A DNA stretch of 64,000 bases, taken from contig NC_061064.1 of NCBI RefSeq assembly GCF_021917145.1, forward strand, positions 5,596,091 through 5,660,090, given 5' to 3'. This DNA is from Hypomesus transpacificus (lineage: Eukaryota > Chordata > Actinopteri > Osmeriformes > Osmeridae). Positions within the stretch are counted from its first letter, which is position 1; every line of letters begins with the position of its first letter. Shown piece by piece: positions 1,460 to 64,000 of the stretch. A program made the translations under genes and the position numbers. The notes beneath the pieces are model-generated. The model was not told where the DNA came from and searched no databases. It saw only the letters and a list, made by a program, of their open reading frames with translations.

Positions 1460-2598
1460 TTCACTTCTTTAACAAAGGACAGCAACAGCAACAGGCGAAT
1501 GTATTTGGGTTATTTTGTAGTAAAATATAGTTGGATTAAGTAGCCTGCTGCGGAAACTTGGAACAAATTGGATTTATCTCCGAACGATTTGAACTGTTAT
1601 AACAAACTGCAAGGAACCTTCAATTGCTGTGAAACTTTAGCGCCACCACAAGGTTGAGTAAGTTGTGTGAACAGTGAGGAGCACCCAAGGCTGCGCGCCA
1701 TAATGACCGACTCACAGACAAGTGATGAACAAGTAATTTTATTGCACTTTAGAAATGACCATATAAAATACGCATACAGCTTAAGCCTAGGAATCATGTG
1801 AAACACTGTCAGAATGTGCATCCATGTACATTCTTCACAACTGAATTGATTGAATAATGAACTTAACTAGAAAGTGCATTTCCTGCATGCGTTGGAATGC
1901 TGAAAGCTGAAAGCTGAAATAAATTTTAAAATATTGAAAAAAGTTGACCAGATATCAAAGGTGATTTTTTAAAAATAGTTTGGGGTTTTGTCAACATTTT
2001 AAATGTTGGCTGTACCTGAAAGATTGAGGAAGAAGAAGGATTTGAAAGTTGAAGTTTAAGAGGATTTGAAAATATTATGAATATTGATTTATATTAATTC
2101 AAGCATAAGAGGTAGAAGGCTTAGAGGTCACAGCTGGTGACCCCTGAAACTGCTGATTTTTTTGATAGCTGAACGGTTTTAATGGCTGAAAATTTGAAAA
2201 GGCACTGAAAGGTGCTACGGAAAAATAGAATTAAAAAATGAAATTGATAAAGATTCGAAGAACAATAGTTCCAATCCTAAAGCAGCATTCCAACATTTAT
2301 GTATCTTCACTCACCATTCTACAATATTGTATAATTGTAAGAATTGATTGGTTTGACAGTGTTGATTATATATGCTTGCTTGCTACACAAACAAATACAG
2401 TAGTATGCAATCGAATAAGATGTACAGTGCCTATAGAACGTGCCCTCTTGAACATTCTAGCATTTTGTTGACTTCCAACATTTTTGTTGTATTCACACAG
2501 CATACTCCACGCTATACAAATGACATATTCAAAATACAAAAGTGGTAGGCCTATTCAAATTTGTCTCCAAACGCCCGAGTTAATGCGTGATGGCAGCA
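1460..2598. other. Spacer between the two duplication copies
   Basis: This AT-rich non-coding sequence shows no exon or long ORF that I recognise. Near the right end (about 2425-2598) the text resembles the terminus of a Tc1-like or related dispersed fish element (phrases such as acagtgcctatagaacgtg, followed by attttgttg). That match is from memory and is weak. Confidence 0.4.
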
Positions 2599-4054
2599 AT
2601 TACAGCTGTGAGTCTGATGGGCTGAATCTTGAGTGATGACTTCTGTCATTTCACAACACCTTAGAGGCTAGATATGTGTGCTGTGCACACATTCACCGTT
2701 CTGGCCATAGAAACTTGTAGCTTTTTTTGTTGTTACCTAGTTTCCAATGGCCTTGTCTTTGATCAAATCAGTCTCATTCTTTCTCGGTCAACCCATTTAG
2801 GGAGACAGCCTGATTTACAAAGGTTTTCTTGACCATGCTTTGTTTTTCATACCTATCTGCTGATAGGAACTTGTCCACAACATTGTTCTCTTGAACATTT
2901 CATGGTGCTCATGGTTGAATGTATCCATTAAAATGCACTACCCTGCTCAGAAACTGCAGAATTGATCCTGAAATCTATGTAACACAGGTGTGTGTGATTT
3001 TAAAGGTAATTGGTTGCACTTAAAATTGGATCTTTTTAATGACTTAACTTGTGCTACTACTTCTATTGTAGTAATACTAATAATAATAACAACTTTTATT
3101 TCAGGCAATGAAACTTTTTGAAAATGGGGTTAGAGATGCTATAGGCACTGTACATTCAAAGTTGTCACCCTTGTACAGTGCTAATTTCAACACACAGACA
3201 AACACTAAAGTTCCAAGTGGCTAGTACAACACAGTCCCAACCAGTCCCAGTGCTAGGCACAAAAGCAACGTAGCTATGGAACTAAAGCACCCTGTGTGGA
3301 GAAGGGAAGGAATGAAGAAATGAAGAAAGTAGAGTCAGTTCAGATTAATTACAAGTTTTTATCAGTGATAATTTAACATGATAAACTTTGACTTTATCAT
3401 TATTCCGCATAAACTTCATGTTTATTCAATAAAACCTTTATTGATACAAACAAAAAATCTAACCTTGAGAGGAGTTTGCTGGAAGAAAGAAAAAATAAGT
3501 TAGGCATTAGAGGAGGCTAGTGAGTTATAACAAACAAGCCGAGTGACACACACACACACATACACACACACACACACCTCTGATAGTAAAGGTGGTCTCC
3601 ATGCCAGCGTGGATATGATTTGAAACGTGACAGTGTAGCAGCCACGTTCCAGGGTTACCGGCTACCATCTCGATGGTCTGGAACGTTCCTGGGAACAGGT
3701 CAAACACGTCTGCACGGTGGACGTGGTCCGTCTGACACACACACACAAACAAAAGACACACAAAGACACGCATACACGCACGTATGCGGACAGATGCATG
3801 CACACACACAGACATCGACACATGCACGCACACAAGAGAAGAACAGAGAGAAGAGCAACAAGAGAGAAAAATACCAGGATGGAGGGAGGGAGGAAAGGAA
3901 GGAACACAGTAGGGGGGGTTAGACAGACCTAATCAAACCATGAAGCTCTGTGCCTTAAAGGGCTGACTTCATGCTCCTTCAGTGTTCTATCCATGAAGGA
4001 AGAGGGTTAAGATGATGGGAACTGTAGTCTAGGAAAGTGCACGTCCCTTCTGTG
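2599..4054. repeat. Proximal copy of ~1.46-kb direct segmental duplication
   Basis: This is the second copy of the block at 1-1459, at an offset of about 2598 bases. Homology ends after a shared stretch ending gtcccttctgtg, beyond which the two copies diverge completely. It contains the functional terminal exons of the hephl1-like gene (3731-3578 and 3478-3459) and its AATAAA signal. Confidence 0.93.
3437..3442 (-). terminator. Polyadenylation signal AATAAA of hephl1-like gene
   Basis: TTTATT on the plus strand reads AATAAA on the gene strand, about 17 nt past the TAG stop. The 3' UTR would therefore be very short. An identical signal occurs in the duplicate at 840-845. Confidence 0.6.
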
Positions 4055-15079: not shown

Positions 15080-22665
<7,586 letters not shown>

Positions 22666-25302
22666 TGACCTGGGGACCAGGCTCAGGGACCAGGCAACAG
22701 GACCCAGCCTGGTGGAGGAGGGGGAGGGGGAGGGGGAGGGGGAGGGGGGCTGGAGCTGGTCAGACCTAACCGCCCCCCTCCCCCTCCCTACTCCCTTTAT
22801 CCATGTGAAGCAGGCAGCCTGGATGTCCGGATCTATATGACAGCATGGGTTTAAGTAATCCATACATTGTCATAGCAGCACTTAAATGGACATGAGTGAT
22901 TTATATTGTGTGATTGATTGGGGAAGGGGGAGGGAGAGGTTGGAATATGCCAGGGGCTGTTTGGGGTTGGTGGGGACTAGCAGGCCAGAGGGAGTCTGGG
23001 ATATGAATTTTTCCTTGCTTTTGACATGGAGTGAGCCTAACCATGACATGGGGCAACCGGTGCATCAGCGTAGGATGCGGAGTGACATCACGTGATTAGG
23101 TAGTCGATGTAACCGTTTTAAGTTTTAACGGTTGAGTGAAGTTCGGCTGCCTGCGTTTCCGCGGCGACCAATCCTCTCTGACAGACAGGGATCTAACAGT
23201 CGTTCTGGTGAACATAGGTCAGCATTTCATCTCTCACATGAATCGGCAACACAGTGTGTGTGTGTGTGTGTGTGTGTGGGGGGGGGGGGGGTCACTATTT
23301 GTAATGACTTGTAATGCTCGACCTCGTCAGATGTCCCAAGCTACTGGAGAGATTACAACCAGATAGTACAGTAAATCCACATCCAAAAATCAAGCCCTAA
23401 TCCCTTGGCCGGACACTTTTGGAGATTTGAGGGGATTGGACAGGTGATCGTAGAGGGGAACGTCCAACCAGCGGGACAGGAAGATCTGTCCCTCGTCCAA
23501 CTCTCCGATCCCCCTCACCTCTCTACGAGTGCTCACGGGATAGCCGGAGGTCAGGGATTCGTTAGGGACGACGGCATATTAGCCCTGTAGAATGTGCCGC
23601 TGTGTGTGTTATACCTGGCTTCGTGTGTTTACATTGAAAGGGCGCCCTGTTCTGCATTGACATCAGGTTTCCGGTCATCAACCCAGCTTTACAAACACTC
23701 CCAACCTCCACGTCCCCCTATTCAGAGGGAGGCCGTGATTGTGAAGAGATGCCATCTAACAGAAATCCCCCCGTAGAACGTAGCAGAAATCCTTTTAAAA
23801 TCTAGCAATATTATCAGCTATTGTATGTATGATACACAATTATAATCAAAAGCGTATACTGTGTCAAATACCAGTATGAATGTTTGTAAATGTATGTATA
23901 AAAATTAAGGATTAGAAGAATTTGTCTTTGTTTTAAGAAAGTGCGATGGCTTTGCATTAAAACTATTTGGTGGGAGGCTGCTGGGGTGGGTGCTGCGTTG
24001 CGGTTGCTTCTCACCCGAGTCCACTGACAAGCTGATGCACCGACTGGCCACTAGATGGCTTTCACTGACAACAAATGGGTGAGGATTGAGAGAAGTTCGG
24101 TAATCAAACTAACTAGATAAAAGTTAGAGATGGTATAAACAGTTAAGGTGTATGATTTAATATGAAAATTAAAAAAATATGAATATTAATATGAATATCA
24201 TATTTCAACAGCTTATGGAATGTTTGGAATGTTGGCTAGGCAGTAAAGGGTTAAGAAAGTGCGATGGCTTTGCATTAAACTATTTGGTGGGAGGCTGCTG
24301 GGGTGGGTGCTGCGTTGCGGTTGCTTCTCACCCGAGTCCACTGACAAGCTGATGCACCGACTGGCCACTAGATGGCTTTCACTGACAACAAATGGGTGAG
24401 GATTGAGAGAAGTTCGGTACAAACTAACTAGATAAAAGTTAGAGACACCTCAAACAACAACAATCTTATACCAGGTATAGGTACGACTATACTTGTAAGA
24501 CCAAAAGGTCCAGAGAGCAGGGAACAGCTCCTACGTGTTCGCTTGGATAGTGTCAGATGCTGGGCTGAAATCTGTGTGGACCACATAGCTAACGCTGCCT
24601 ACTAAAAGTGACCTGGGAACCTCCTTATACCGTTTACTTTTCCTGGAATAGATGATAGGGGTAGCTGAGAGTGTGTCACTGCCCAGCACATTATGAATTA
24701 ATGTCCTGCAGATGGATTTATTTTCGTCCGAAAAACAATTCACTAATGCACAGATTATGGGAAAAAGGTTTCAAATTATCCAAAAGGATGAAGCGTCAGG
24801 TGTCAAAATAATTCATTCACCTGGATGTTAACTACGGTATTAATTTGTACCTATTTGGATCGGGCTATTTAAATCATTCAGTACTTTTGTGACTTGAAGC
24901 ATCTCTTCTGAGCTATATGGGGTAGGGGTGTGTGTGCACGGAGGAGGAGGGGAGTCGCACTAAAGAAGCACGCAGTCTTATTGGATGACAAAGACGTGGG
25001 CGGATGTACGGTGACGTTGCCCATAGCGGGGATTAACTTGTTTATGTCGCCATCTCTACCGCAATTATAACACCGGACAGCTAGAACACACGACAGCACA
25101 TATACTTTAGAAAGATAATCATATCTTTCTTTAAGTTTAATTAGACCGTATACAGCGGTGTACAAGTCTGTGTAGTCGACATTGCGCAAACAGAAGCGGG
25201 GGGCTATGGTGTACAGTAGTAGCGCACAGGTTGTGAAGGTGCACGAGGATGAAAACTGGGGAACGCAGGATGAGGTTACTTGGTTGATAACTTGTGAATG
25301 AA
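22666..25302. other. tmem135 3' UTR and tmem135-rskr intergenic region
   Basis: The first few hundred bases are presumably tmem135 3' UTR, beginning with a gaggggg minisatellite (22718-22746). A GT run followed by a 14-nt G run lies at 23254-23291. A ~195-bp duplicated block sits at 23933-24130 and 24251-24445. No protein-coding exon was recognised. Sequence from about 24900 to 25302 is the likely rskr promoter and 5' UTR. Confidence 0.6.
23933..24445. repeat. Pair of ~195-bp direct repeats
   Basis: Copies at about 23933-24130 and 24251-24445 share long identical text (for example ggtgggaggctgctggggtg and ccgactggccactagatggc), with only small indels. They are separated by about 120 bp of AT-rich DNA. 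No coding content. Confidence 0.85.
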
Positions 25303-33265: not shown

Positions 33266-36039
33266 GTAAGAAACAGTCCGTTAATGCAATCACTTCAGTA
33301 AACGATGTATAGGTTATTTTCTTCTGCTCACTTATTGTGGAGTTTAAAATTAGATACCCATTGTATGACGCAGGCAACGTTAGCACAAACGTAATAGTTT
33401 CCGTTAAGGACAGTATTATAGCAGGGACGGTCTTGCACCGTAGCAAGATTTATCGGTGTAAATTCGAAAGGTGAAGTGTCTCGGTTTCCTATCTGAAAAT
33501 TAGAGTTAAACCTTCAACCTGTTGCAGGGATACGAGAACGGGAAGCTGTGTCGCTACATCTAACCGCATTGTTCTGAAATACTATTGCCAATAAGCAAAT
33601 GGTGATGGTGCCATTCAATTTACTGTCATCCTTGCTCGGGCGGATTTACTGAAACGTAGTCAATCTCATGTCGAATCTAACATTTTTGACCTGATTTGCA
33701 TTTTGCAGCCATCAAACATTTTAACCACAGACATATGTTAGCTACAGAACACAGGTCGCACGTGCAACGGTACACGTTGATCCTCTTACCTCTGGATAAA
33801 AGAGTCCAAAATAAACGGCCATACCACCTACTTTAGACAGCTGCATCATCCTTATCATCGTCATCGCAACAATGTCTCTCACTGTGTGTGCGTGACTCCC
33901 CACTCCCACCCCCTTGGCCTACGTGCAGAAGAGGACGGTCTAGCCCTCGTGACCAAATGCCCCTCTATCGAGGAACCCAATACTCTGGTTCATTTGTTAA
34001 TATATAATGACCTGACATACAGTATTATAGAGTCGGATGTTATGCGTGTGTGTGTCTGTGTGTGAGGTATTGACCAAGGTGAGATGATTTTGCGCCACAT
34101 AGCAAGATACAGTGCCACGGAGGACAGTTAGCCAACGCCTTTTGATGTCGCAGTGCAGAACCTGTGTCTACATTTTTGGTAGTCTGTCTCATGCCACCAC
34201 AAATTATTTTTCTCCCTTTTAACCTTGCATCTAGCACTACCTGCAGCACATTGCTATGGAATTCAGGCCAGATTTTAGGTGACATTCAACTATACAGCAA
34301 ACAAACCCTTATTGACACTGCTTTCTGTAAAGCTTGTCACCTTCCAATAGCAGCAACAGACACACACACACACCATGCAGGTCCCTCAGGTCTGCCAATA
34401 GAACACGTAAGTACTGTTCTCTTCTCCCAAAAGATGTTCTCCACAAGAGCAATCTGAAACCTAGCCTATTCCCACAAGGACATGTCCTCATTGGATGAGA
34501 TGTGAGCACATTTGTGTGTGTGTGTGTGTGTGTTTAACACACCAGCCAGTTTGAGGAATGCTGAGTGTAGGCTACTGAATGTTGTTATCTCATGGCTGTA
34601 AGCTGGGGATTAGCAGAAAGAATACAGTGTGCCAGGTCATACCCTTCCATAGCAACAGAATTGAGCAAACTTGTGGAAGAGAACCCACTCAGTACACCCC
34701 AAACTCATTGTTATTCAAAAAAATTGAATATTCGCTTCTGCTTTGGTTCAAAAGTGTTGTTTCTGATCCAGATTCAGCCATTGTCCCCTCTGTAGGCCAA
34801 ACCCTGGAGAGGGTTGGGGACAAATCCCTGGTTTTGATGCGTAGATTTCTGACACCTGCACCTTATACTAGATGTGTATACATGGATAGGCATTTTTATC
34901 ATTCTTTAGCAACCTAGCCATTCTTCTGTTACAGAACTGCAACACATCCTTTGTTTAAGGCCTTGTTTAGGATTTATGACCCTGACACACAAGCAGCCAT
35001 TTTGTGTCTGGTACCAGGATAAGAGTCCTGTTCCATCGTGACTAAAACATGAGTGTCAAATGTTTTTAATGATATCTATTAAATGCACAAAATAATAACA
35101 TTTCTTAAAAGGTGGAAAAAGCTCTACAATCTAAATGTGTGTGTGAGTGAAAGTAGGTATCACACAATCGAAGAGGTCTGTCACTGCTTGTTTTCTGGCA
35201 CACTAGTGGAAAGAATGTTCTAGAATGGAACATTTCTATCGGTTGGCCCATTTGTGTGCTTGTAGGCTAGTTCCAGAGTGGGAATTGATTGGTGTCGAGT
35301 GTGCCTATAATGTGCCGTTTCTCTAAATGACAAAGTCACCCACTGGACAGACATGGCCCCGGGCAGGAGATGAGGATTCATGGAGGAGGTTGAAAGAGGA
35401 CGAGGAAATGGAGAGACCAAGAGAGAAATTGAGGGAAGGAAACAAAATGAAAGGGTGACTGCAGGAAAGATATTTGAGAGAGGGTTGTTATGAATTGTGC
35501 TCTCCATCAGCTGTAATGAGGATTGGCAGTAGACCATATAGGAGAGAACGATTACATAATCCCTCCCCCTCTCTTTCTTCTCTCTATCCCTCTGTAATCA
35601 CTATGACTACCGTGTAGTGTGAGGGGGGGGGGGGGGTAGTGGTGTGGTTGTAGCCACGGTTACGTAACGGCCTGCTTATTTACGCGAAAGTGATGGAGGG
35701 TACTATGGAAGAATGCAGAATGAAGGCTTTAGAACACAGAGAGGACGTTTGTCTGCATGTCTGCGTGTGTGTGACAACACTTCCTGTTTAACTAGGCCAA
35801 ACTAGGCTTGTCATACACCACATATCCAGGATGTCATGACAAGTAAAATATGACGACATGTCCTTAACAATCGCATCCCTGACATACTGTCGCTTCTGCT
35901 GTGACACTACTTAGTAAACATTGCTCTCTCTTTCTCACTTTCTCTTCTCTCTTTTCCTCTCCTCTCTCTTTCCCGCTCTCCCGTGTTTCTTCCTTTTCTC
36001 TCTGTCTCTGTCTCTCTGTCTCTGTCTCTGTGTGCCAGT

Positions 36040-36269
36040 ATGACTCACCAATACCCAGCGCTGACTCCGGAGCAGAAGAAGGAGCTGCAGGACATCGCTG
36101 AGAAGATCGTGGCCCCAGGGAAGGGCATCCTCGCAGCTGATGAGTCCACAGGTGTGTATTTCCCTTCAACCTGTGATGGTGCACTACAGTGCCCATGCTT
36201 ACCTTCAAGTGTTTCTGTGCACTTTCACGACATTTCACCACACCGTTCAGTCACACTTTGGGTGTGCTT

Positions 36270-36315
<46 letters not shown>

Positions 36316-37880
36316 ACAGGCAGCATGGCCAAGCGTCTGAACCCCATCGGGGTGGAGAACACCGAGGAGAACCGCCGCCGCTACCGCCAGCTGCTGTTCA
36401 CAGCTGACGAGCGCATCGACAACTGCATCGGGGGGGTCATCTTCTTCCACGAGACGCTTTACCAGAACACGGACGATGGCACGCCCTTCCCCCAGCTCAT
36501 CAAGGACCGCGGGATGGTCGTGGGCATCAAGGTGGGTGTCCGTTGTGGCTCCGACCCAGATTCCTTCAGCAGGGGTCAAAGCCTGTTTGTTGAGAGGACT
36601 GGAGTCCTACTTGGCCTGTACATGAATGTAGGACAGTGGTAACTGTCTAGACCACACAAGGCAACACGTTTTAATGACTCATTCACTGACGAGGCTTTGT
36701 GTATTACACACAAATGCACTCTGACACAGATACACTCAAATCAGGGGTAGTGAGTGTTTAAACAGACAACATTTACATTGTCATTCAGCAGACGCTCTTA
36801 TCCAGAGCGACTTACAGTAAGTACAGGGACATTCCCCCTGAGGCAAGTAGGGTGAAGTGCCTTGCCCAAGAACACAACGTCATTTGGCACGGCAGGGAAT
36901 CAATCCGGCAACCTTCTGATTACTAGCTCGATTCCCTAACTGCTCAGCCACCTAACAACATATATAACGTGCACACACACACAGTGTGTATTTCCAGAGG
37001 ATTAGCTAAGCTTAAGGACACTTGTAGGTACGTTGAGGTCAGGCTCTGGGATGACCAGTGCAGTGTTTGTCAGTCAGAGGATATCCTTACATAAACCTTC
37101 CCTCAGATCTGACCACAGTACTTTCCGAGATCCATAGATCCTTTATATGAATACTGTAACAAAGGCATATGATCAGTGTGTTTTACCAAGCAAGATCTCT
37201 CCCTGCAGGTGGACAAAGGTGTTGTGCCCCTGGCCGGGACCGATGGAGAGACCACCACACAGGGTAGGAGCACACACACGCACACACACACTCAGGTATA
37301 CACATACGCACACTCACTAAATCATTTTCACCCACCTACCGCCACACCCTTGGTCTCATGTTTGTGTGTAGGTCTGGATGGACTGTCTGAGCGCTGTGCT
37401 CAGTACAAGAAGGATGGTGCTGACTTTGCCAAGTGGCGCTCTGTGTTGAAGATCAGTGAGAACACACCCTCTGAGCTGGCCATCATGGAGAATGCCAACG
37501 TACTGGCCCGCTACGCCAGCATCTGCCAACAGGTGTGTGTGGGTGTGTGTGGTGTGTGTCTGTCTGTCTGTGGGTGTATTTGGCGTTCCGTAACACAATG
37601 CGTTGTGTTTCAGAACGGTATTGTTCCCATCGTGGAGCCTGAGATCCTTCCTGACGGAGACCACGACTTGAAGCGCTGCCAGTACATCAGTGAGAAGGTG
37701 ATTGATCCTTGTCACCCAAGCAGCGCAGCCAACCAGATACATGACAGTATAAGAAGACAACACATTAGTATAGAGCACACTGTACATCATAACATAAAAT
37801 ATTATTCTAATATCCCATTTAATGCCCGTCTTTTACTTTTTCTGTACTAACCCAGTTACCGCCAATGTTTGACTTTTCTC

Positions 37881-37939
<59 letters not shown>

Positions 37940-38907
37940 GTCCTGGCTGCAGTGTACAAAGCTCTGTCAGACCACCATGTCTACCTGGAAGGCACCCTGC
38001 TGAAGCCCAACATGGTCACCCCCGGACACTCCTGCCCCAACAAGTATACAAACGAGGAGATCGCCATGGCAACCGTCACCGCTCTGCGCCGCACTGTGCC
38101 CCCCGCCGTAACAGGTCCGACACCTACTGTCACTTTCACTTAGCCTGGAATCTAATGGAATTCGTCTGGAACCTCTCAGTTCAATCTTTTACTTCCAAGG
38201 GGTGTCGTCAGTCCAAAATGTCTCTGGATGCAATTGGATAGAATTTGATTGAAACAAACAAGCAGAGTAACAAAACATGAAATCTTGGTTGTTCGCCTCA
38301 ACTGTGCTGCACTCTACAGCCATCATATTAAATCCGCCCCATACCAGATAAACGGTTGTGATTGACCAAGCCTGAATCTAGTCTGATAGGTCTAGCCAAC
38401 CCCTTGATTTCTGTTTGCCAGAACGAATAAAACAGCTGCTCCCCCCCCTACCCAGGTGTGACATTCCTGTCCGGTGGCCAATCAGAGGAGGATGCCAGCA
38501 TTAACCTGAACGCCATCAACACCTGTCCACTGGCCAAGCCCTGGGCCCTGACCTTCTCCTACGGCCGTGCCCTGCAGGCCTCCGCCCTCAACGCCTGGAA
38601 AGGAGAGCGTGACAACGAAAAGGCTGCCACAGAGGAGTTCATCAAACGTGCCGAGGTACAGCGTCAGAGTGCCCGTATCACACACATGTAGAACCATCAA
38701 TCCTTAGCGATGTAACAACAAACCCAGTCCGCCCCCCCCCCCCCCCCACACACACACACACACACCATTTAGTGCAGCAGTAGTAAACCTCTGTTTCCTT
38801 CCTCTGTCCTCCAGGTTAATGGCCTGGCAGCGCAAGGGAAGTACGAGTCCTCCGGAAGCTGCGGCGCCGCCGGACAATCCCTCTACGTGGCGAACCACGC
38901 CTACTGA
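36040..38907 (+). CDS. aldoc: Fructose-bisphosphate aldolase C
   Basis: A class I aldolase that splits fructose 1,6-bisphosphate into two triose phosphates in cytosolic glycolysis; isoform C is the brain form. Eight coding exons: 36040-36151, 36320-36531, 37209-37263, 37372-37532, 37614-37697, 37940-38114, 38456-38655, 38815-38907. Together they make 1092 nt (363 aa), the normal length, and exon sizes equal those I recall for mammalian aldolases. The start [16 protein letters not shown] is preceded directly by the acceptor. [18 protein letters not shown] and the Schiff-base lysine context GTLLKPNMV are intact. The C-terminus [11 protein letters not shown] ends in the essential tyrosine and is closer to ALDOC than to ALDOA or ALDOB. 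A GT microsatellite precedes exon 3 and a CT microsatellite precedes exon 7. Confidence 0.97.
36274..36311. repeat. (GT)n microsatellite forming the aldoc exon 3 acceptor region
   Basis: About 19 GT units end 8 nt before the exon 3 start (tgcgcacag acceptor). Confidence 0.9.
36772..36958 (-). mobile_element. tRNA-derived SINE, reverse orientation, aldoc intron
   Basis: It is the reverse complement of the family member at 63310-63507. The shared tail is gcagacgctcttatccagag, the middle gtgccttgcccaagaacac, and the tRNA-like head is at the right end (cgattccctaactgctcagc). Confidence 0.85.
37881..37937. repeat. (CT)n microsatellite as polypyrimidine tract of aldoc exon 7
   Basis: About 57 nt of alternating CT runs straight into the AG acceptor at 37938-37939. 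Confidence 0.9.
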
Positions 38908-40242
38908 GCCCCTCGCTGCACATTCCACTGCCGCCAACCAATAGTTTCCTCTGCTGCTGCTCCGCCCCCTTCCCTCCACCCCCCCACCCACCCACCCCCC
39001 TCTAGTCACAGGCCTGCGCTGTCTACTGTACTTTAGGACTGTCGTGGAGACGTCGATGCGATGTGACTGAGTTTGTGTATTTAAAAGCTGTTTGTACTGT
39101 ATCCATGCTAAAGAGGGTCCAAACCTGTGCTTGTGTAAGCGGTAGTTGAAGTTCAGTGGGCATTTTAGAAGGAACAGCTCTTCATCCACGACAGTGCAAG
39201 TCAAGAGAATTCTTTACTAATTGTTTGCTAACAGTGACAATTGTGAGGATGACGATTGTGACCTGGTCGAATAACAAGTCAGTAGTCACTCAATACCTGT
39301 CTTCTTTCACGTCAATCTACTCTCTTTCGCTCATCTTCCCCCAATCCATTCACCACCGACCTACCTTTGCCTTTCAGTCCTTACTCTCAATTCAATCACT
39401 CCAGAGCTGCTCAGATCTTGTGTGTGTAAATCATGTGTTTCGCTTCTGTCTGAATGCAGTATGGACTCTGTCATCGCAATACTAACAATCTCCCTGGCAG
39501 CGTGACCAATCAAAAGAACCGATAACATCCGTAGTTAAAGACCAATCAAAGACTAGATTACATCCTATGGCAACCAGTGTGTGAAGTGTTATTTATGCAG
39601 AGTTTTCTGTGTGATTCAGAAGTGGAGGGGGTATCGGTATTCACACTCTCACCCCAGCCAGAGACTGAAACCTAGCTGAGGTGGATGGGTAGACTGCAAA
39701 CCACTAAACACCAAGTCTCAACCTAACCTTTCTGTTTTTCTCCTTCTGACCTCCAATGATTGGGACTCCCCCTGTGTCTACCGTGTCATCAAAATATTAG
39801 CTTTGAATTACATCGTATTGAGTTATGTGACAGTGTTGATATATGTGACGCTTGTTTGTGTTGATCTTCCCTTGCCCCCTTCCTTGACCAATGGCCAGAG
39901 AAGTAATAAGGATGAATCTGATTGTCTGTCCTGGGTAGAGAGGGCCTGAGTATGAGGTTTGTAAGGGATGGGGGCGTCACTGCTTTGTTGGAATACTGTG
40001 ATGTTTGTGATGTTGGTATTGTTCTTGAAGCACTTGGTGTGTCAAATAGTGGACAAACTTACAGAAAACTACAATAAAAATTACAAAAACTATTAGAAAC
40101 GTTGTGTGAACATTCCCTATTCCTTTCACAGTGGGGTGTTCAATAATAATTTTGCATTATTACACATTCAATTACATATGAATACACTTACAACATTTTG
40201 GCCACTGCCTGAAGATCAATGAATCTGACCTTGTAATATGAG
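38908..40242. other. aldoc 3' UTR
   Basis: This is untranslated sequence after the aldoc stop. AATAAA at 40073-40078 is the best polyadenylation signal, giving a UTR of roughly 1.2 kb. No ORF or RNA gene was recognised. The 8 bases aatatgag at 40235-40242 are the left target duplication of the adjacent transposon. Confidence 0.6.
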
Positions 40243-41525
40243 TAGTGCTGTCAGTTTAACGCGTTATTAACGGCGTTAACGCAAACCCAAATTAACGGCG
40301 TCAATTTTTTTATCGCGCGATTAACGCTCTTTTTGGCCTAGCAAACTTTGTAGTTTTTTTCCACATGCTGTTGCAACAACTACCGAAGTTAGAAAAACTA
40401 CAACACCACACCGGATCTAGCTAGACCGGAAACAAAACAACAGGCACGCCACACACTTGTTTGGCTTGCGATCCGGCTAAAGCGTAGTAGCAGAGCCCGT
40501 TTACGGATATGAGACATTCTCTGGTAGTAGGTTAACTTTACGTTTTGAGTGGATGGCGAGCGCGAGACGCCGAAATGGATGCCAATAAGATTCTGAATGG
40601 AAAGTTTACTTTTAAAAAGTTGCCAAATGGTTCCATTGACAAGACCAAGTGATCTGTGTGTTTTGTCGTTGTAAAATGAGCTATCATTGCAGCACGTCCA
40701 GTCTGAAATACGACTTGATATGGAAGCAAATCGTGACCACAATTCAAATTCAAATGTATTTCCAGAAATGCATTTTCATTTTAAGAATGTGGCTGCATTA
40801 TTTGACTCATAAATCAAATTAGTATTCAATCATCCTATTTGCATTTTCATTTTCTTCTTTAAGACTGCTCATTCTTTCCCTTAATTAAAATGAAAACGAA
40901 AAAGACATTTGAAATTTAATTTTCAAAATATGCCCCAGCAAATAGATACCAAAATTCAATTTGAAATGTAAAATTTGAAAATGAAAATGCATTTCCAGAA
41001 ATGCATTTTCATTTTAAGAACGTGGCTGCAAAATCGTGACCACAATTCAAATTCAAATGCATTTCCAGAAATGCATTTTCATTTTCAAGAACGTGGCTGC
41101 AAAATCGTGACCACAATTCAAATTCAAATGCATTTTCAGAAATGCATTTTCATTTTAAGAACGTGGCTGCAAAATCGTGACCACAATTCAAATTCAAATG
41201 TATTTCCAGAAATGCATTTTCATTTTAAGAATGTGGCTGCATTATTTGACTCATAAATCAAATTAGTACTGATTAGTACTGAGCGGACATTGCATTTTCA
41301 TTTTCATGTTCTGCCCGCAAAGAACTGCCCATAATTCGAAAACGAAAATGCATTCTGAGCGGCGCAGTAGAGTGACGTCAGTAGCCGCTCTTCTTCAGCT
41401 CCCTGCTGACCGAGCTACCCATCTTGTTCGGTAGGGGGCGGTGTGCACATACGCATTGCATTACATGACAAATGTGCCGGGAAATTGATTGAATTGCCGG
41501 GTCTTTAGAGGACGCATCACAGATC

Positions 41526-41885
41526 ATGGCGCTCCCTCAAATTGTGCAGACACTGATAGAATTAGCTGAGCTGGTAGAAACTAATAATATATCTGAGTCT
41601 GATGCCCGTGACCGAGTAGAACAAGTCACAGAGAGCTTGGCTGCATACTCTGCCGTCACAGACGTACACATTAATGAGGTTGCCATAGTAAACCTCTCTT
41701 CAGTCCTGGAACGGCTGGATGCTGTGGAGGCTCAAATGGGACGGGGACGACCAACCATCCACATCCCGTTCGAGTCCATCGAAAACTATTTATTAAATGG
41801 TTTAAAAATAAAGGACATAGCGGAGCTGTTGTCGGCCACCAGACCATCCGTCGGAGGATGCAAAGCAACGGATTTACGGAGCTAG
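41526..41885 (+). pseudogene. Truncated N-terminal transposase-like ORF with HTH start
   Basis: This 119-codon ORF starts MALPQIVQTLIELAELVE, has a helical segment and an RGRP-type stretch, then KIKDIAELLSATR. That last piece resembles a helix-turn-helix that goes out of frame at once, with the expected arginine-rich helix readable in another frame. In fish, I recall this N-terminus on integrase-core (rve) transposase proteins; no rve domain is present here. A product, if made, would be a DNA-binding fragment at most. Confidence 0.6.
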
Positions 41886-42047
41886 AAAGCTGACAAAAGT
41901 ATCTGAATTTGAATATGAAAGATCTGAAATATTTGTGTCTCGAATTTCATAAAACTGAAATATATTGCTGTTGAATATATAATATCTGAATTATTTGTAT
42001 GCCAAATTTAATACAACTGAATTATTTTGATCCAAAAATAAAACATT

Positions 42048-42455
42048 CTAAAATTCAGATTGCAGGAATTCAGATTCTTGAAATTCAGATTGCGGAAATT
42101 CAAATTCAGATTGCGGAAATTCAGATTTTGTCTGAACCAGGCCAAAGGTGAAACAGCTTGCTTTCACAGGAAAAAGTAGACCATTTAATAAATAGTTTTC
42201 GATGGACTCGAACGGGATGTGGATGGTTGGTCGTCCCCGTCCCATTTGAGCCTCCACAGCATCCAGCCGTTCCAGGACTGAAGAGAGGTTTACTATGGCA
42301 ACCTCATTAATGTGTACGTCTGTGACGGCAGAGTATGCAGCCAAGCTCTCTGTGACTTGTTCTACTCGGTCACGGGCATCAGACTCAGATATATTATTAG
42401 TTTCTACCAGCTCAGCTAATTCTATCAGTGTCTGCACAATTTGAGGGAGCGCCAT
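42048..42455 (-). pseudogene. Mirror copy of the truncated transposase-like ORF
   Basis: It is identical to the plus-strand ORF over the first ~93 residues (MALPQIVQ... to ...ENYLLNGL). It then reads into spacer sequence with a low-complexity tail (QSEFEFPQSEF), so it ends before the helix-turn-helix. It is convergent with the copy at 41526, so both point to the palindrome centre near 41990. Confidence 0.6.
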
Positions 42456-44004
42456 GATCTGTGATGCGTCCTCTAAAGACCCGGCAATTCAATCAATTTC
42501 CCGGCACATTTGTCATGTAATGCAATGCGTATGTGCACACCGCCCCCTACCGAACAAGATGGGTAGCTCGGTCAGCAGGGAGCTGAAGAAGAGCGGCTAC
42601 TGACGTCACTCTACTGCGCCGCTCAGAATGCATTTTCGTTTTCGAATTATGGGCAGTTCTTTGCGGGCAGAACATGAAAATGAAAATGCAATGTCCGCTC
42701 AGTACTAATCAGTACTAATTTGATTTATGAGTCAAATAATGCAGCCACATTCTTAAAATGAAAATGCATTTCTGGAAATACATTTGAATTTGAATTGTGG
42801 TCACGATTTTGCAGCCACGTTCTTAAAATGAAAATGCATTTCTGAAAATGCATTTGAATTTGAATTGTGGTCACGATTTTGCAGCCACGTTCTTGAAAAT
42901 GAAAATGCATTTCTGGAAATGCATTTGAATTTGAATTGTGGTCACGATTTTGCAGCCACGTTCTTAAAATGAAAATGCATTTCTGGAAATGCATTTTCAT
43001 TTTCAAATTTTACATTTCAAATTGAATTTTGGTATCTATTTGCTGGGGCATATTTTGAAAATTAAATTTCAAATGTCTTTTTCGTTTTCATTTTAATTAA
43101 GGGAAAGAATGAGCAGTCTTAAAGAAGAAAATGAAAATGCAAATAGGATGATTGAATACTAATTTGATTTATGAGTCAAATAATGCAGCCACATTCTTAA
43201 AATGAAAATGCATTTCTGGAAATACATTTGAATTTGAATTGTGGTCACGATTTTGCAGCCACGTTCTTAAAATGAAAATGCATTTCTGAAAATGCATTTG
43301 AATTTGAATTGTGGTCACGATTTTGCAGCCACGTTCTTGAAAATGAAAATGCATTTCTGGAAATGCATTTGAATTTGAATTGTGGTCACGATTTTGCAGC
43401 CACGTTCTTAAAATGAAAATGCATTTCTGGAAATGCATTTTCATTTTCAAATTTTACATTTCAAATTGAATTTTGGTATCTATTTGCTGGGGCATATTTT
43501 GAAAATTAAATTTCAAATGTCTTTTTCGTTTTCATTTTAATTAAGGGAAAGAATGAGCAGTCTTAAAGAAGAAAATGAAAATGCAAATAGGATGATTGAA
43601 TACCAATTTGATTTATGAGTCAAATAATGCAGCCACATTCTTAAAATGAAAATGCATTTCTGGAAATGCATTTTCATTTGAATTTTGGTCACGATTTGCT
43701 TCCATAACTTGATGGCCAAGCACACAGATGATGCAAATTCTCCGCCCCCTCGTCAAAGCCAGGCGATTGCAATGTTGTTTTCAATAACAAAAAATATTTG
43801 CACGAAGCAATCCGAACCACTTTTCCATGTTGATAAGAGCATTAAAATTTGAAAAAAGAATGGGACAAAAAGAAATCAAGGGACATTTAGAATAGATAGA
43901 AATAGAAATGTGCGATTAATTGTGATTAATCACGAGTTAACTATGACATTAATGCGATTAATCGCGATTAAATATTTTAATCGTTTGACAGCACTAAATA
44001 TGAG

Positions 44005-44330
44005 CCATTTAATTATCGATCAAACTGCTACTTTGCCAAATTAAGCCATGGCTATGTATTGCCCTTGATTTATTTATAGGATACCTATTGCCTGTATATG
44101 GCCATAGGAAATAGGTAACTCACAAGAAATACATTTTTGCAATAATCTAGCTGCGGTGTGGTCATTTTCTCAGCTGTCATTTCCAACCGTTTTCCACTTC
44201 CTTATTGTCAGTGCATTAGGTCCGCCTTCTGGCTCATTGGCCGTTTGGGTATTGGTGGAAGGGGGTGCACCTTACTTTGATTGGAGAATTCTCTTCCGTA
44301 TGCTCCAGCCACGCCTCGTATGAGGGAAAA
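44005..44330. promoter_or_regulatory. Probable pigs promoter and 5' UTR
   Basis: This is a short interval between the transposon and the pigs ATG. A CCAAT-box complement (tcattggc, 44233-44240) lies about 95 nt upstream of the ATG. No TATA box is obvious. The remainder is ordinary AT-rich DNA. Confidence 0.4.
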
Positions 44331-47300
44331 ATGACTACCATGGAAGTGGGTGAGTGAGATTTGTGTAATGTTTCCTCATAAATGCAAACCATTTTCAGAA
44401 TAATAACATTTCTGGAAGAAAGATGTGCCGTCGTTTTGTTCATTGTCCCACAATATGCCATAAATGCTAGGTTTGGTCGCTAGCTAGTTTGACACGCGCT
44501 AGCTACAAATGTTAGCTGGCTAAGCACAGTGCCCTAGACCTTGATTTTTCTTATGTTATCCAGAGAAAAATGCTATAGCCAGTAACTTAGCAGATACTGT
44601 GCCCAACAAGATACCTGACCATGCTACACAGTGATGCTGATGGAAGGAATGATCGTTGGATTGATGTCCATGGCATTTGTCTTGGTCTGTTTGAGACAAA
44701 TGCATTGCATACTGCACTATAAAAAGTCGTAATTCAATCTGTTAAACATATTTGCGACACGATGTTTGAACAGGAAAATAAGCAACAAAGGCCTAGCCTA
44801 CATCCTTGGACCTGCTGTTAAATTGTTTGCGTGCTGTTGCCTGGTGCAGTGTGTAGTGTATCATTATGTGGTTGTTAACTGTTTTGAGGATAGTGTGGTG
44901 TTATGTGTGTTTGTTCTTCTGATATCGCTTTGGTACCCATTGAGTCCCTGGCTGAGTATTTCTCTGTCTGGCGCAGAACGACAGCGGGGTCGGTACGCAG
45001 CACTGGCCATCGCAGCCGTTGTGATTGTAGTGGGAGTCCCTCTTTGGTGGCGCACCACCGAAACTTACCGTGCCTGGCTGCCTGTGCACCAGATCAACGA
45101 GTTGGCCCAGCTGCAGGTATGTTGTGTAATTATGTGTTCGCATACATTGCTATTCTGTATAACCTCTGTCTAACTTCCACCTCTTGTTCTTTAGCTTCAG
45201 TTGAATGTCGATGTAGAAGTTGTGTTCTCCCGTGGAACCCTGACCCCAGAACAAGGGAAAAAGGTTCCATTAACACAAACACGAGATGAGGAACACACAG
45301 TGGACGGTAAGGGTAACGTACTTGGTGTTTTTGATTGATCAGCAAGCACGCAAAACTTGATTCAATTTAAATAGCTACTTAGGTTTCCATTTCACATCCT
45401 CTAACTTCGACCAAATGTTTCTCTTCTTCCTTTTGCGCCATCTAAGCAAGAACGGAGGAGCATGTTATCGGTATATGTGTATAATGTCTCCTCTCTTCCA
45501 CATGTCTTGTTCTCCCTATAGAAAATACTTCTCTGAGGTACAAGTATGAGACAAAGTACCGAACAGCTACCATCATGGAAGAGGATGCTCTTAACCAGCC
45601 TACTGCTGCAGGTCAGGCCTCCTCAGCCTCAGTTGTCAAACTCAGCCCCCCAGCCCTAACAGCTCCCTCAAGCAAAACCATGCAGATATGACAAAAGGAA
45701 ACAAGCATCTGATGGCTCTATATCTCTCTGTGTCTCTCTCTGTTCCCTCCTTTAGAGGCTGACGTCGCTCTGCACACGCTCAGTGAGAGCCCGTGTGGTT
45801 CCGTGGTGGTGCACGTGATCCCCGAATCCTCCTCGCTACTTCCAGAGGTGAGGACGAGACGTTAGCCTTCGCAAGCGTATACAAAACGGAAGGGGGGGGG
45901 GGGGGGGGGGGGGGGGAAGACAGCGTCCGCGTGTTCATGCCATGGGTGTGTGTCCCTGTCAGGGCGTGAGCGTGTACGTGGGCCGGAGGAGGACCGCCGT
46001 GCTGCGAACGAGCAGCGCTCCGAGAGGGGGCGTGACTCTCAAGGAGGTGCTGGCTGCCCTGGAGCCGCAGGTCACCCAGGTGCTGCACATGATGTCGTTC
46101 AGCCACACTGACATCGCCGTGGCCGTCAGCGACCGAGTCCGCCTCGGCAAAGTCAGCAGGGAGAGTCTGGTAGACAGCATGAGAGCCTTCAAGTCCAGTC
46201 CAGGTCAGTTCACGAGACCGTCACATTTGACCCACTTGAGATGAGAAATGTCCATGGTACTGTGCCATTAGTTCACATGAGATTAGCACATTTTCCCCCC
46301 TTGAGTCGGTTTCTAGCCAGACCACTTCCAGTAGTTTCCTTTCAGGCCAGGCCTGGATATGTTCTACCTTACTACTTCCTTTCCTCTCTTTCATTCTTAT
46401 CCCCCTTTTATATATTTTACCCTCCGTGTCTAACTCCAGGATATGAGATAACCTTCAGCCTGCTAAACCCGGATCCAAAGTCACACCGCCTCCACTGGGA
46501 CATCGAGGGAGCTGTACAGAACTACATCCAGCCCTTGCTCACAAAACTAGCCCCTGTCGCCAACTTCAGCATCGACTCTCAGGTGGTCCCATCTCCATAT
46601 CTCGTCGGACTTGCTGATCAACCACATCTGTGTGGCTGTCAAATATGTAACCGGGTCCCTTCTCATCTGTGTGCCATAGATCCTGTACTACGCAGTGCTG
46701 GGGGTCAACCCTCGCTTTGACGGCAGCTTTAATGCCTACACGCTCAACGCTGAGAGCCTTGCACACGTTATTAACCCTGTGGAGGCCAGACTGGGTGAGA
46801 AGCGCACACGCGCGCACGTAAATATACACGGCCCCAACCGCGAACAGCTTATCGTTTGGGAGAAATAGCCTATGTGCAAGGTTATGCATGTGGACATTGA
46901 GGTGACGTCGTAAAGATAGCGAGGTAGGTGTTTTTCTGTGTCCAGGCTCCAGTGCCGCTTCCTCCTACCCGGTGTTGAACTTCCTGCTGTACGTGCCTGA
47001 TGCCCACCACTCCCCCCTCTACATCCATGGGCACAGGAAACAGGAAGTGCCTTCCAACGCATTCCATTCTCCACGCTGGGGTGGCATCATGGTGAGACGC
47101 TGCCACCTTCTTACGGGGCGGCTGCAACAGCTTGCCACCATGGGCAATCTCGTCATCGCTTTGTTTTGTAGGACAAACTCCTTCTCATCCCATTTTTCTC
47201 TCTGTAGGTGTATAACGTCAACGACCGCTATGGGCCTGGGGCTGAGTTTCCTGTTGATGTCAGCATAGACATGGCCAGGGTCATGGGAGTCTTCCTTGCA

Positions 47301-56212: not shown

Positions 56213-64000
<7,788 letters not shown>

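Follow-up and report, generated by a model that had tools for sequence, protein, structure and literature searches.

The window analysed here, a 64-kb stretch (64,000 nucleotides) of DNA from Hypomesus transpacificus, carries a palindromic element of 2,988 bp (window positions 40719-43706) that likely represents a non-autonomous foldback form derived from an IS3EU-type transposon, and was likely inserted by the transposase of an intact relative. The probability of this reading is put at roughly 0.6. It draws on the terminal inverted repeats and 6-bp flanking duplications of the element, on two inverted arms that account for 2,610 of the 2,988 bp and contain 70-bp tandem repeats and a 444-bp unit, and on the 5' part of a transposase gene that is held in each arm. 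The foldback form had been proposed in a preliminary description of this DNA, and the arms do form most of the element.

Ends of the element and its hAT-like host

The bounds of the element were set by its inverted ends together with the flanking duplication, and it lies within a second, hAT-like element. The features concerned are as follows.

40713..40718, unstranded: left target-site duplication ACTTGA, flanking the palindromic element
40719..40739, + strand: left terminal inverted repeat, TATGG..., 21 nt, identical to the right end
43686..43706, - strand: right terminal inverted repeat, ...CCATA, 21 nt, identical to the left end
43707..43712, unstranded: right target-site duplication ACTTGA, flanking the palindromic element
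40235..40242, unstranded: left hAT target-site duplication AATATGAG, 8 bp
40243..43996, unstranded: host hAT-like element, 3,754 bp including the insert, 760 bp minus the insert and one ACTTGA
43997..44004, unstranded: right hAT target-site duplication AATATGAG, 8 bp

Both the ACTTGA duplications and the nesting within a hAT element, as first described, were found in place, the host carrying a AATATGAG duplication of its own. The inverted ends are likewise real, and the identical stretch, given earlier as 20 nt, was measured as 21 nt. Elements of the hAT superfamily are defined by an 8-bp duplication and short inverted ends; the host displays the ends TAGTGCTGTC and GACAGCACTA and an intact 8-bp duplication on both sides, and its superfamily was called from these ends and this duplication only.

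The IS3EU group is characterized by TA..TA ends and usually a 6-bp duplication, according to PMC10045372, and IS3EU-type families of the Pucciniales (rust fungi) end in TAYGG..CCRTA, according to PMC12730594. The termini of the element, TATGG..CCATA, show the TA..TA form, and the ACTTGA on either side is a duplication of the 6-bp length. The fit of TAY/RTA ends and a 6-bp duplication to IS3EU, suggested in the preliminary description, thus agrees with both sources. Few families of this group are catalogued: Repbase held 45 in 2022, 17 of them autonomous, as stated in PMC10045372.

Elsewhere in the window, an open frame of 602 amino acids (aa) at 61303-63108 on the - strand gave weak matches to a Spin-doc zinc finger and to the hAT C-terminal dimerisation domain, each scoring slightly below its curated cut-off. 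Upstream of the nested transposons, at ~35905-38700 on the + strand, lie exons of a class I fructose-bisphosphate aldolase (Pfam match at 35905-36639; further exons by eye), and an exact 143-bp direct repeat occupies 23960-24102 and 24277-24419, its starts 317 bp apart. A search of Rfam with window positions 38000-46000 gave 0 matches.

Palindrome arms and the 444-bp unit

The arms were delimited as follows.

40719..41801, + strand: left arm (end, repeats, transposase 5' part), 1,083 nt
42180..43706, - strand: right arm, same content plus one extra 444-bp unit, 1,527 nt
40728..41801, + strand: inner palindrome arm, perfect complement of 42180-43253
42180..43253, - strand: inner palindrome arm, perfect complement of 40728-41801
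42713..43156, - strand: inner 444-bp unit of the right arm, 0/444 mismatches against 43157-43600
43157..43600, - strand: extra 444-bp unit of the right arm, 0/444 mismatches against 42713-43156
40985..41241, + strand: ~3.7 tandem 70-bp subterminal repeats, several with the end core AAATCGTGACCA, candidate transposase binding sites

The inner arms match over 1,074 nt with 0 mismatches. The longest exact inverted match elsewhere in the window is 52 nt, and the inner palindrome is therefore far beyond chance. The two inverted arms of about 1.08 kb that had been reported hold for this inner match and for the left arm, and the right arm proved longer. The single mirror rule proposed with them, in which x pairs with 83981-x, had to give way to two offsets: 83981-x is valid inside, for 40728-41801 only, and 84425-x applies outside, where it pairs the outermost 9 nt and, with 5 mismatches, the block 40719-41268. 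The second rule arises from the additional exact 444-bp unit of the right arm.

Taking a single 444-bp stretch out of the right arm, for which 13 adjacent positions within the end repeat are equivalent, reproduces the left arm with 0 substitutions over 1,083 nt. The simplest reading of these sequences is that the arms started out identical at ~1.53 kb each and that recombination between 97-nt repeats then removed one unit from the left arm. Such a loss leaves 1 mismatch in the 1,086 nt compared, at position 41802, which lies in the loop and outside the match. Five copies of a 97-nt repeat, which borders the unit, are present: four are identical and the outermost right one differs from them at 5 sites. 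The adjoining 347 nt are identical in all three copies. Alternatively, the outermost right piece could be the other end of the parent transposon.

A gain of the 444-bp unit in the right arm was also modelled and was less simple, the best such model leaving 6 mismatches against 1 for a loss in the left arm; the gain may have been combined with a separate conversion of the left outer repeat.

Each 444-bp block contains most of one ~3.7-unit array of the 70-bp tandem repeat, and the end core AAATCGTGACCA occurs at four places in the left arm and at seven in the right. By analogy with Galileo, whose long-end repeats can contain transposase binding sites (abstract of PMC3688188), the 70-bp repeats with these cores are candidate binding sites here as well.

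The 0 differences among the 1,083 aligned arm sites would date the split of the arms to less than ~0.14 to 1.4 million years ago, a 95% bound that supposes rates of 1e-8 to 1e-9 per site per year and the absence of gene conversion. Gene conversion between the arms would void the bound, and a hint of such conversion comes from a related protein sequence, P0123, described below.

Transposase fragments and recurrence of the arm-spacer junction

Three further features make up the coding part of the arms, with their open reading frames (ORFs), and the spacer between them.

41526..41885, + strand: left-arm ORF, 119 aa; family match to ~residue 102, then out of frame inside the helix-turn-helix
42048..42455, - strand: right-arm ORF, 135 aa; transposase residues 1-92, spacer-encoded tail from residue 93
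41802..42179, unstranded: loop, 378 nt; left transposase remainder, AT-rich middle, unmatched right side

Both arms encode the same 92 residues from an ATG (at 41526 on the + strand and at 42455 on the - strand), pointing inward; the shared ORF start and the inward direction had been described before. Beyond the point at which the left ORF leaves the frame, family sequence continues in another frame to ~41872. This N-terminal sequence matched P0002, a grouper protein of 350 aa (66% identity, E 1.2e-39), one of 2 matches among 327 candidates. This protein carries the integrase core PF24764 at 219.8 bits and has 2,663 homologues at E <= 1e-10; among the best 120 listed, most of the named ones are from fish and some from corals or other invertebrates. 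PF24764 was above its cut-off in the ORF relatives P0002 and P0004, PF00665 was below its cut-off in P0004, and the catalytic spacing was D-56-D-34-E (DD34E) in the three relatives checked (P0002, P0004 and P0005). The rve-type parent claimed earlier is supported by this core, and the presence of a transposase 5' end in each arm by the match of the N-terminal 92 residues to an rve-type relative. At the DNA level, none of the 8 pattern matches obtained via P0002 in the viral_contigs collection was confirmed as a relative.

The second of the two matches, P0003 from Crenichthys baileyi, is a gene model named FGFRL1 that opens with the N-terminal part of the transposase, including most of the predicted helix-turn-helix, and continues with immunoglobulin domains; it represents either a gene-model error or an exon capture.

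The catalytic core is absent from the element: neither arm reaches it, and both break inside the predicted helix-turn-helix. Pfam gave nothing above cut-off for either arm ORF. When 121 proteins (P0002-P0122) were compared with window positions 40001-44300 by tblastn, 41 of the queries gave rows, and the first catalytic Asp, placed by means of the HIDG motif, was reached in 0 of the 66 rows (8 of which came from queries without that motif). In an AlphaFold2 model of P0004 (43 rows; mean predicted local distance difference test score, pLDDT, of 70), an N-terminal three-helix bundle is followed by a helix-turn-helix with helices at residues 76-84, 89-96 and 100-109; the catalytic part was poorly modelled (block pLDDT of 33-46 for residues 181-230). 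Of these three predicted helices, the right ORF follows the family through the first, and the left ORF diverges ahead of the third.

These breaks bear on the proposal that the short ORFs make a truncated repressor protein, which would bind the ends and block the transposase in the manner of KP, the internally deleted, truncated repressor of the P element. The 92-residue N-terminal frame is open in both arms, has the residues GRGRP within it and can be aligned with the predicted three-helix bundle of P0004, and the right-arm chimera is retained at 134 of 135 residues in P0123. Neither ORF, however, keeps a whole DNA-binding domain, the helix-turn-helix being broken in both, and we consider a repressor of this kind very improbable.

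The search with the left ORF yielded 11 proteins among 19 candidates. One of these, P0123 (135 aa, from an 811-bp contig in ENA), corresponds to the whole right-arm chimera, including its spacer-encoded tail, at 134 of 135 identical residues. The arm-spacer junction must thus exist beyond this assembly. The sole change concerns residue 69, which is Ala in the window (codon GCT in both arms) and Pro in P0123 and in the aligned relatives P0124, P0125 and P0002. If P0123 also derives from a palindrome, then Ala69 must have spread from arm to arm, have arisen twice or have reverted in P0123. The right-arm/spacer junction was absent from the other 10 of the 11 matches; two of these, P0124 and P0125, extend into the helix-turn-helix, and the remaining eight, P0126-P0133, are broken or short pieces that end in different tails. 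Judging from their sequences, decayed copies of the arm reading frame occur in several public sources. With regard to further copies sharing the ends of the element, on which the preliminary description had made its case depend, the P0123 contig speaks against a refutation to the extent that it encodes the right-arm/spacer chimera in one reading frame.

The left side of the loop shows a clear transposase match to ~41872 and, by tblastn, a few weak alignments across stops to 41963. The middle is AT-rich, with TTCAG/CTGAA repeats and a G+C content of 26% in 41890-42136, and ~40 bp on the right side match nothing compared. AATAAA hexamers occur on the + strand at 41807 and 42037 in the loop and at 42187 in the right arm, and on the - strand at 41794 in the left arm, besides several ATTAAA; from their positions, the AATAAA hexamers could end transcripts before the second arm or early within it.

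Perfect inverted copies are a classic artefact of assemblies and libraries, and a foldback read or a collapsed repeat might have made the second arm. The window has other features of a kind that may accompany such errors, namely an uninterrupted run of 91 C at 20246-20336, possibly a sequencing or assembly feature, and a direct repeat (1-1459 and 2597-4054; 99.7% identity over 1,460 aligned positions) whose start coincides with or precedes that of the window. A foldback read would nevertheless give a mirrored flank, and the flanks observed are the two unlike halves of a single hAT-like element, in which the 6-bp and the 8-bp duplications both match. Moreover, the arms differ by a 444-bp unit, and the right-arm/spacer junction recurs in another public contig, that of P0123. 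An assembly foldback is accordingly unlikely, and we give it very little weight.

Origin, mobility and a possible silencing role

For a foldback derivative of an IS3EU-type transposon, the following course of events may be envisaged. The transposase-proximal end would have been copied twice in opposite directions, by faulty repair or template switching during transposition, and the rest of the gene discarded. With the end and the repeated AAATCGTGACCA cores retained in the arms, the unit would remain open to binding and movement by a helper transposase. The left arm would later have lost one 444-bp unit by recombination between the 97-nt direct repeats, and the identity of the arms would have been kept by arm-to-arm gene conversion or would reflect youth. 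Such an element would be selfish DNA that encodes no whole transposase; a transcript running through it is predicted to form a long hairpin. Provided that the palindrome moved in this form and that its two ends are the same end, a recent derivative of this kind would show that two copies of one end are enough for IS3EU transposition.

Several observations weigh against this course of events. No other copy of the element was found in the rest of the window (blastn, E 1e-3), and exact searches for the 20-base end pattern gave 0 matches in the viral_contigs and genome_contigs collections, which are not expected to hold fish DNA. The contribution of P0123 is a reading frame on an 811-bp contig, and the link of the arm reading frame to IS3EU is drawn, at the sequence level, from the ends of this same element. 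In addition, the outermost right 97-nt repeat, five sites off the other four copies, could be the 3' end of the parent, left in place.

The last point leads to a different origin, in which an IS3EU-type element within the hAT element was cut or broken and the gap faultily repaired, its 5' end being copied back from the right-hand side with a template switch within the 97-nt repeats; the palindrome itself would never have moved. The duplication and both ends would be retained in such a case, and the inner match does start at the border of a 97-nt repeat (40728). The outermost right repeat has 5 differences in 97 positions, versus 0 in the neighbouring 444 bp (Fisher p 1.7e-4), which hints at a separate history. 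Conversely, the 347 nt adjoining that repeat match the left arm completely (0/347), which is unexpected for an evenly diverged parental 3' end, and the P0123 contig encodes the arm-spacer junction too, though possibly from the same locus in kin. We regard origin in place as unlikely, if deserving of more than passing consideration, and retain a mobile foldback derivative as the preferred reading.

A role of the hairpin RNA in silencing is possible. For a 1,022-nt RNA with the loop at its centre, the predicted fold reaches -761 kcal/mol, and 329 of its pairs follow the mirror rule. Promoters within the arms or in the flanks might drive RNA through both arms, and the hairpin would then be diced or enter the PIWI-interacting RNA (piRNA) pathway, and silence the intact family. 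The layout of the element resembles that of maize Mu killer, which, in the relevant passages of PMC3440606, has two inverted partial copies of mudrA and derives its two ends from the mudrA side. Convergent transcription from the inverted repeats of Sleeping Beauty vectors is reported (abstract of PMC3343047) to trigger RNA interference in cultured cells. Any perfect inverted repeat folds in this way, however, and the fold is no evidence of function; the AATAAA hexamers in the loop and just inside either arm may stop transcripts; and the silencing by Mu killer is tied by its authors, in the same passages of PMC3440606, to two short antisense transcripts, with no large hairpins possible. An action of this type is therefore considered improbable for the element.

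A still more doubtful extension is that the element is the vertebrate counterpart of Mu killer, i.e., a mobile hairpin locus of IS3EU type that spreads by transposase supplied in trans, seeds small RNAs against the same transposase, and has its arms kept identical by gene conversion. Gene conversion enters this reading because both arms have Ala69 and P0123 and the three aligned relatives have Pro. If it were true, the parasite would carry its own off-switch. In any event, the element provides, in an animal, a naturally occurring hairpin against a transposase gene. With it, the question of whether transposon families of animals can give rise to a silencing locus of their own, in the way of maize Mu killer, becomes open to a direct test. 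Neither a palindromic IS3EU derivative nor an animal Mu killer appeared in the titles and abstract openings of the open-licence literature matches listed.

In comparison with known systems, the element resembles IS3EU and GingerRoot in its TA..TA ends, its 6-bp duplication and the rve-type core of the ORF relatives, with D-56-D-34-E in the three checked; it differs in that it is without a catalytic core and has the transposase-bearing end doubled as a kilobase palindrome. With KP-type P elements it shares a retained N-terminal fragment of the transposase, but a palindrome is present here instead of a simple deletion, and the helix-turn-helix is broken in both arms. The non-autonomous Galileo 2-TIR and Foldback-like elements also consist almost entirely of long inverted ends. 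In Galileo of Drosophila mojavensis, the inverted ends have been lengthened by tandem repeats and recruited internal sequence, and some subfamilies differ in repeat number between the arms, according to passages of PMC3573991. In contrast, Galileo belongs to the P superfamily and makes 7-bp duplications, in the same passages (PMC3573991), and in the present element, whose inner arms are identical, the recruited sequence takes in the first 92 codons of the transposase gene. The closest in layout is the MuDR derivative Mu killer, with two inverted partial transposase genes and both ends from the transposase side, although it belongs to another superfamily and another kingdom. In the present element the partial genes and the inner arms are identical, and the outermost right 106 nt could be the other end of the parent.

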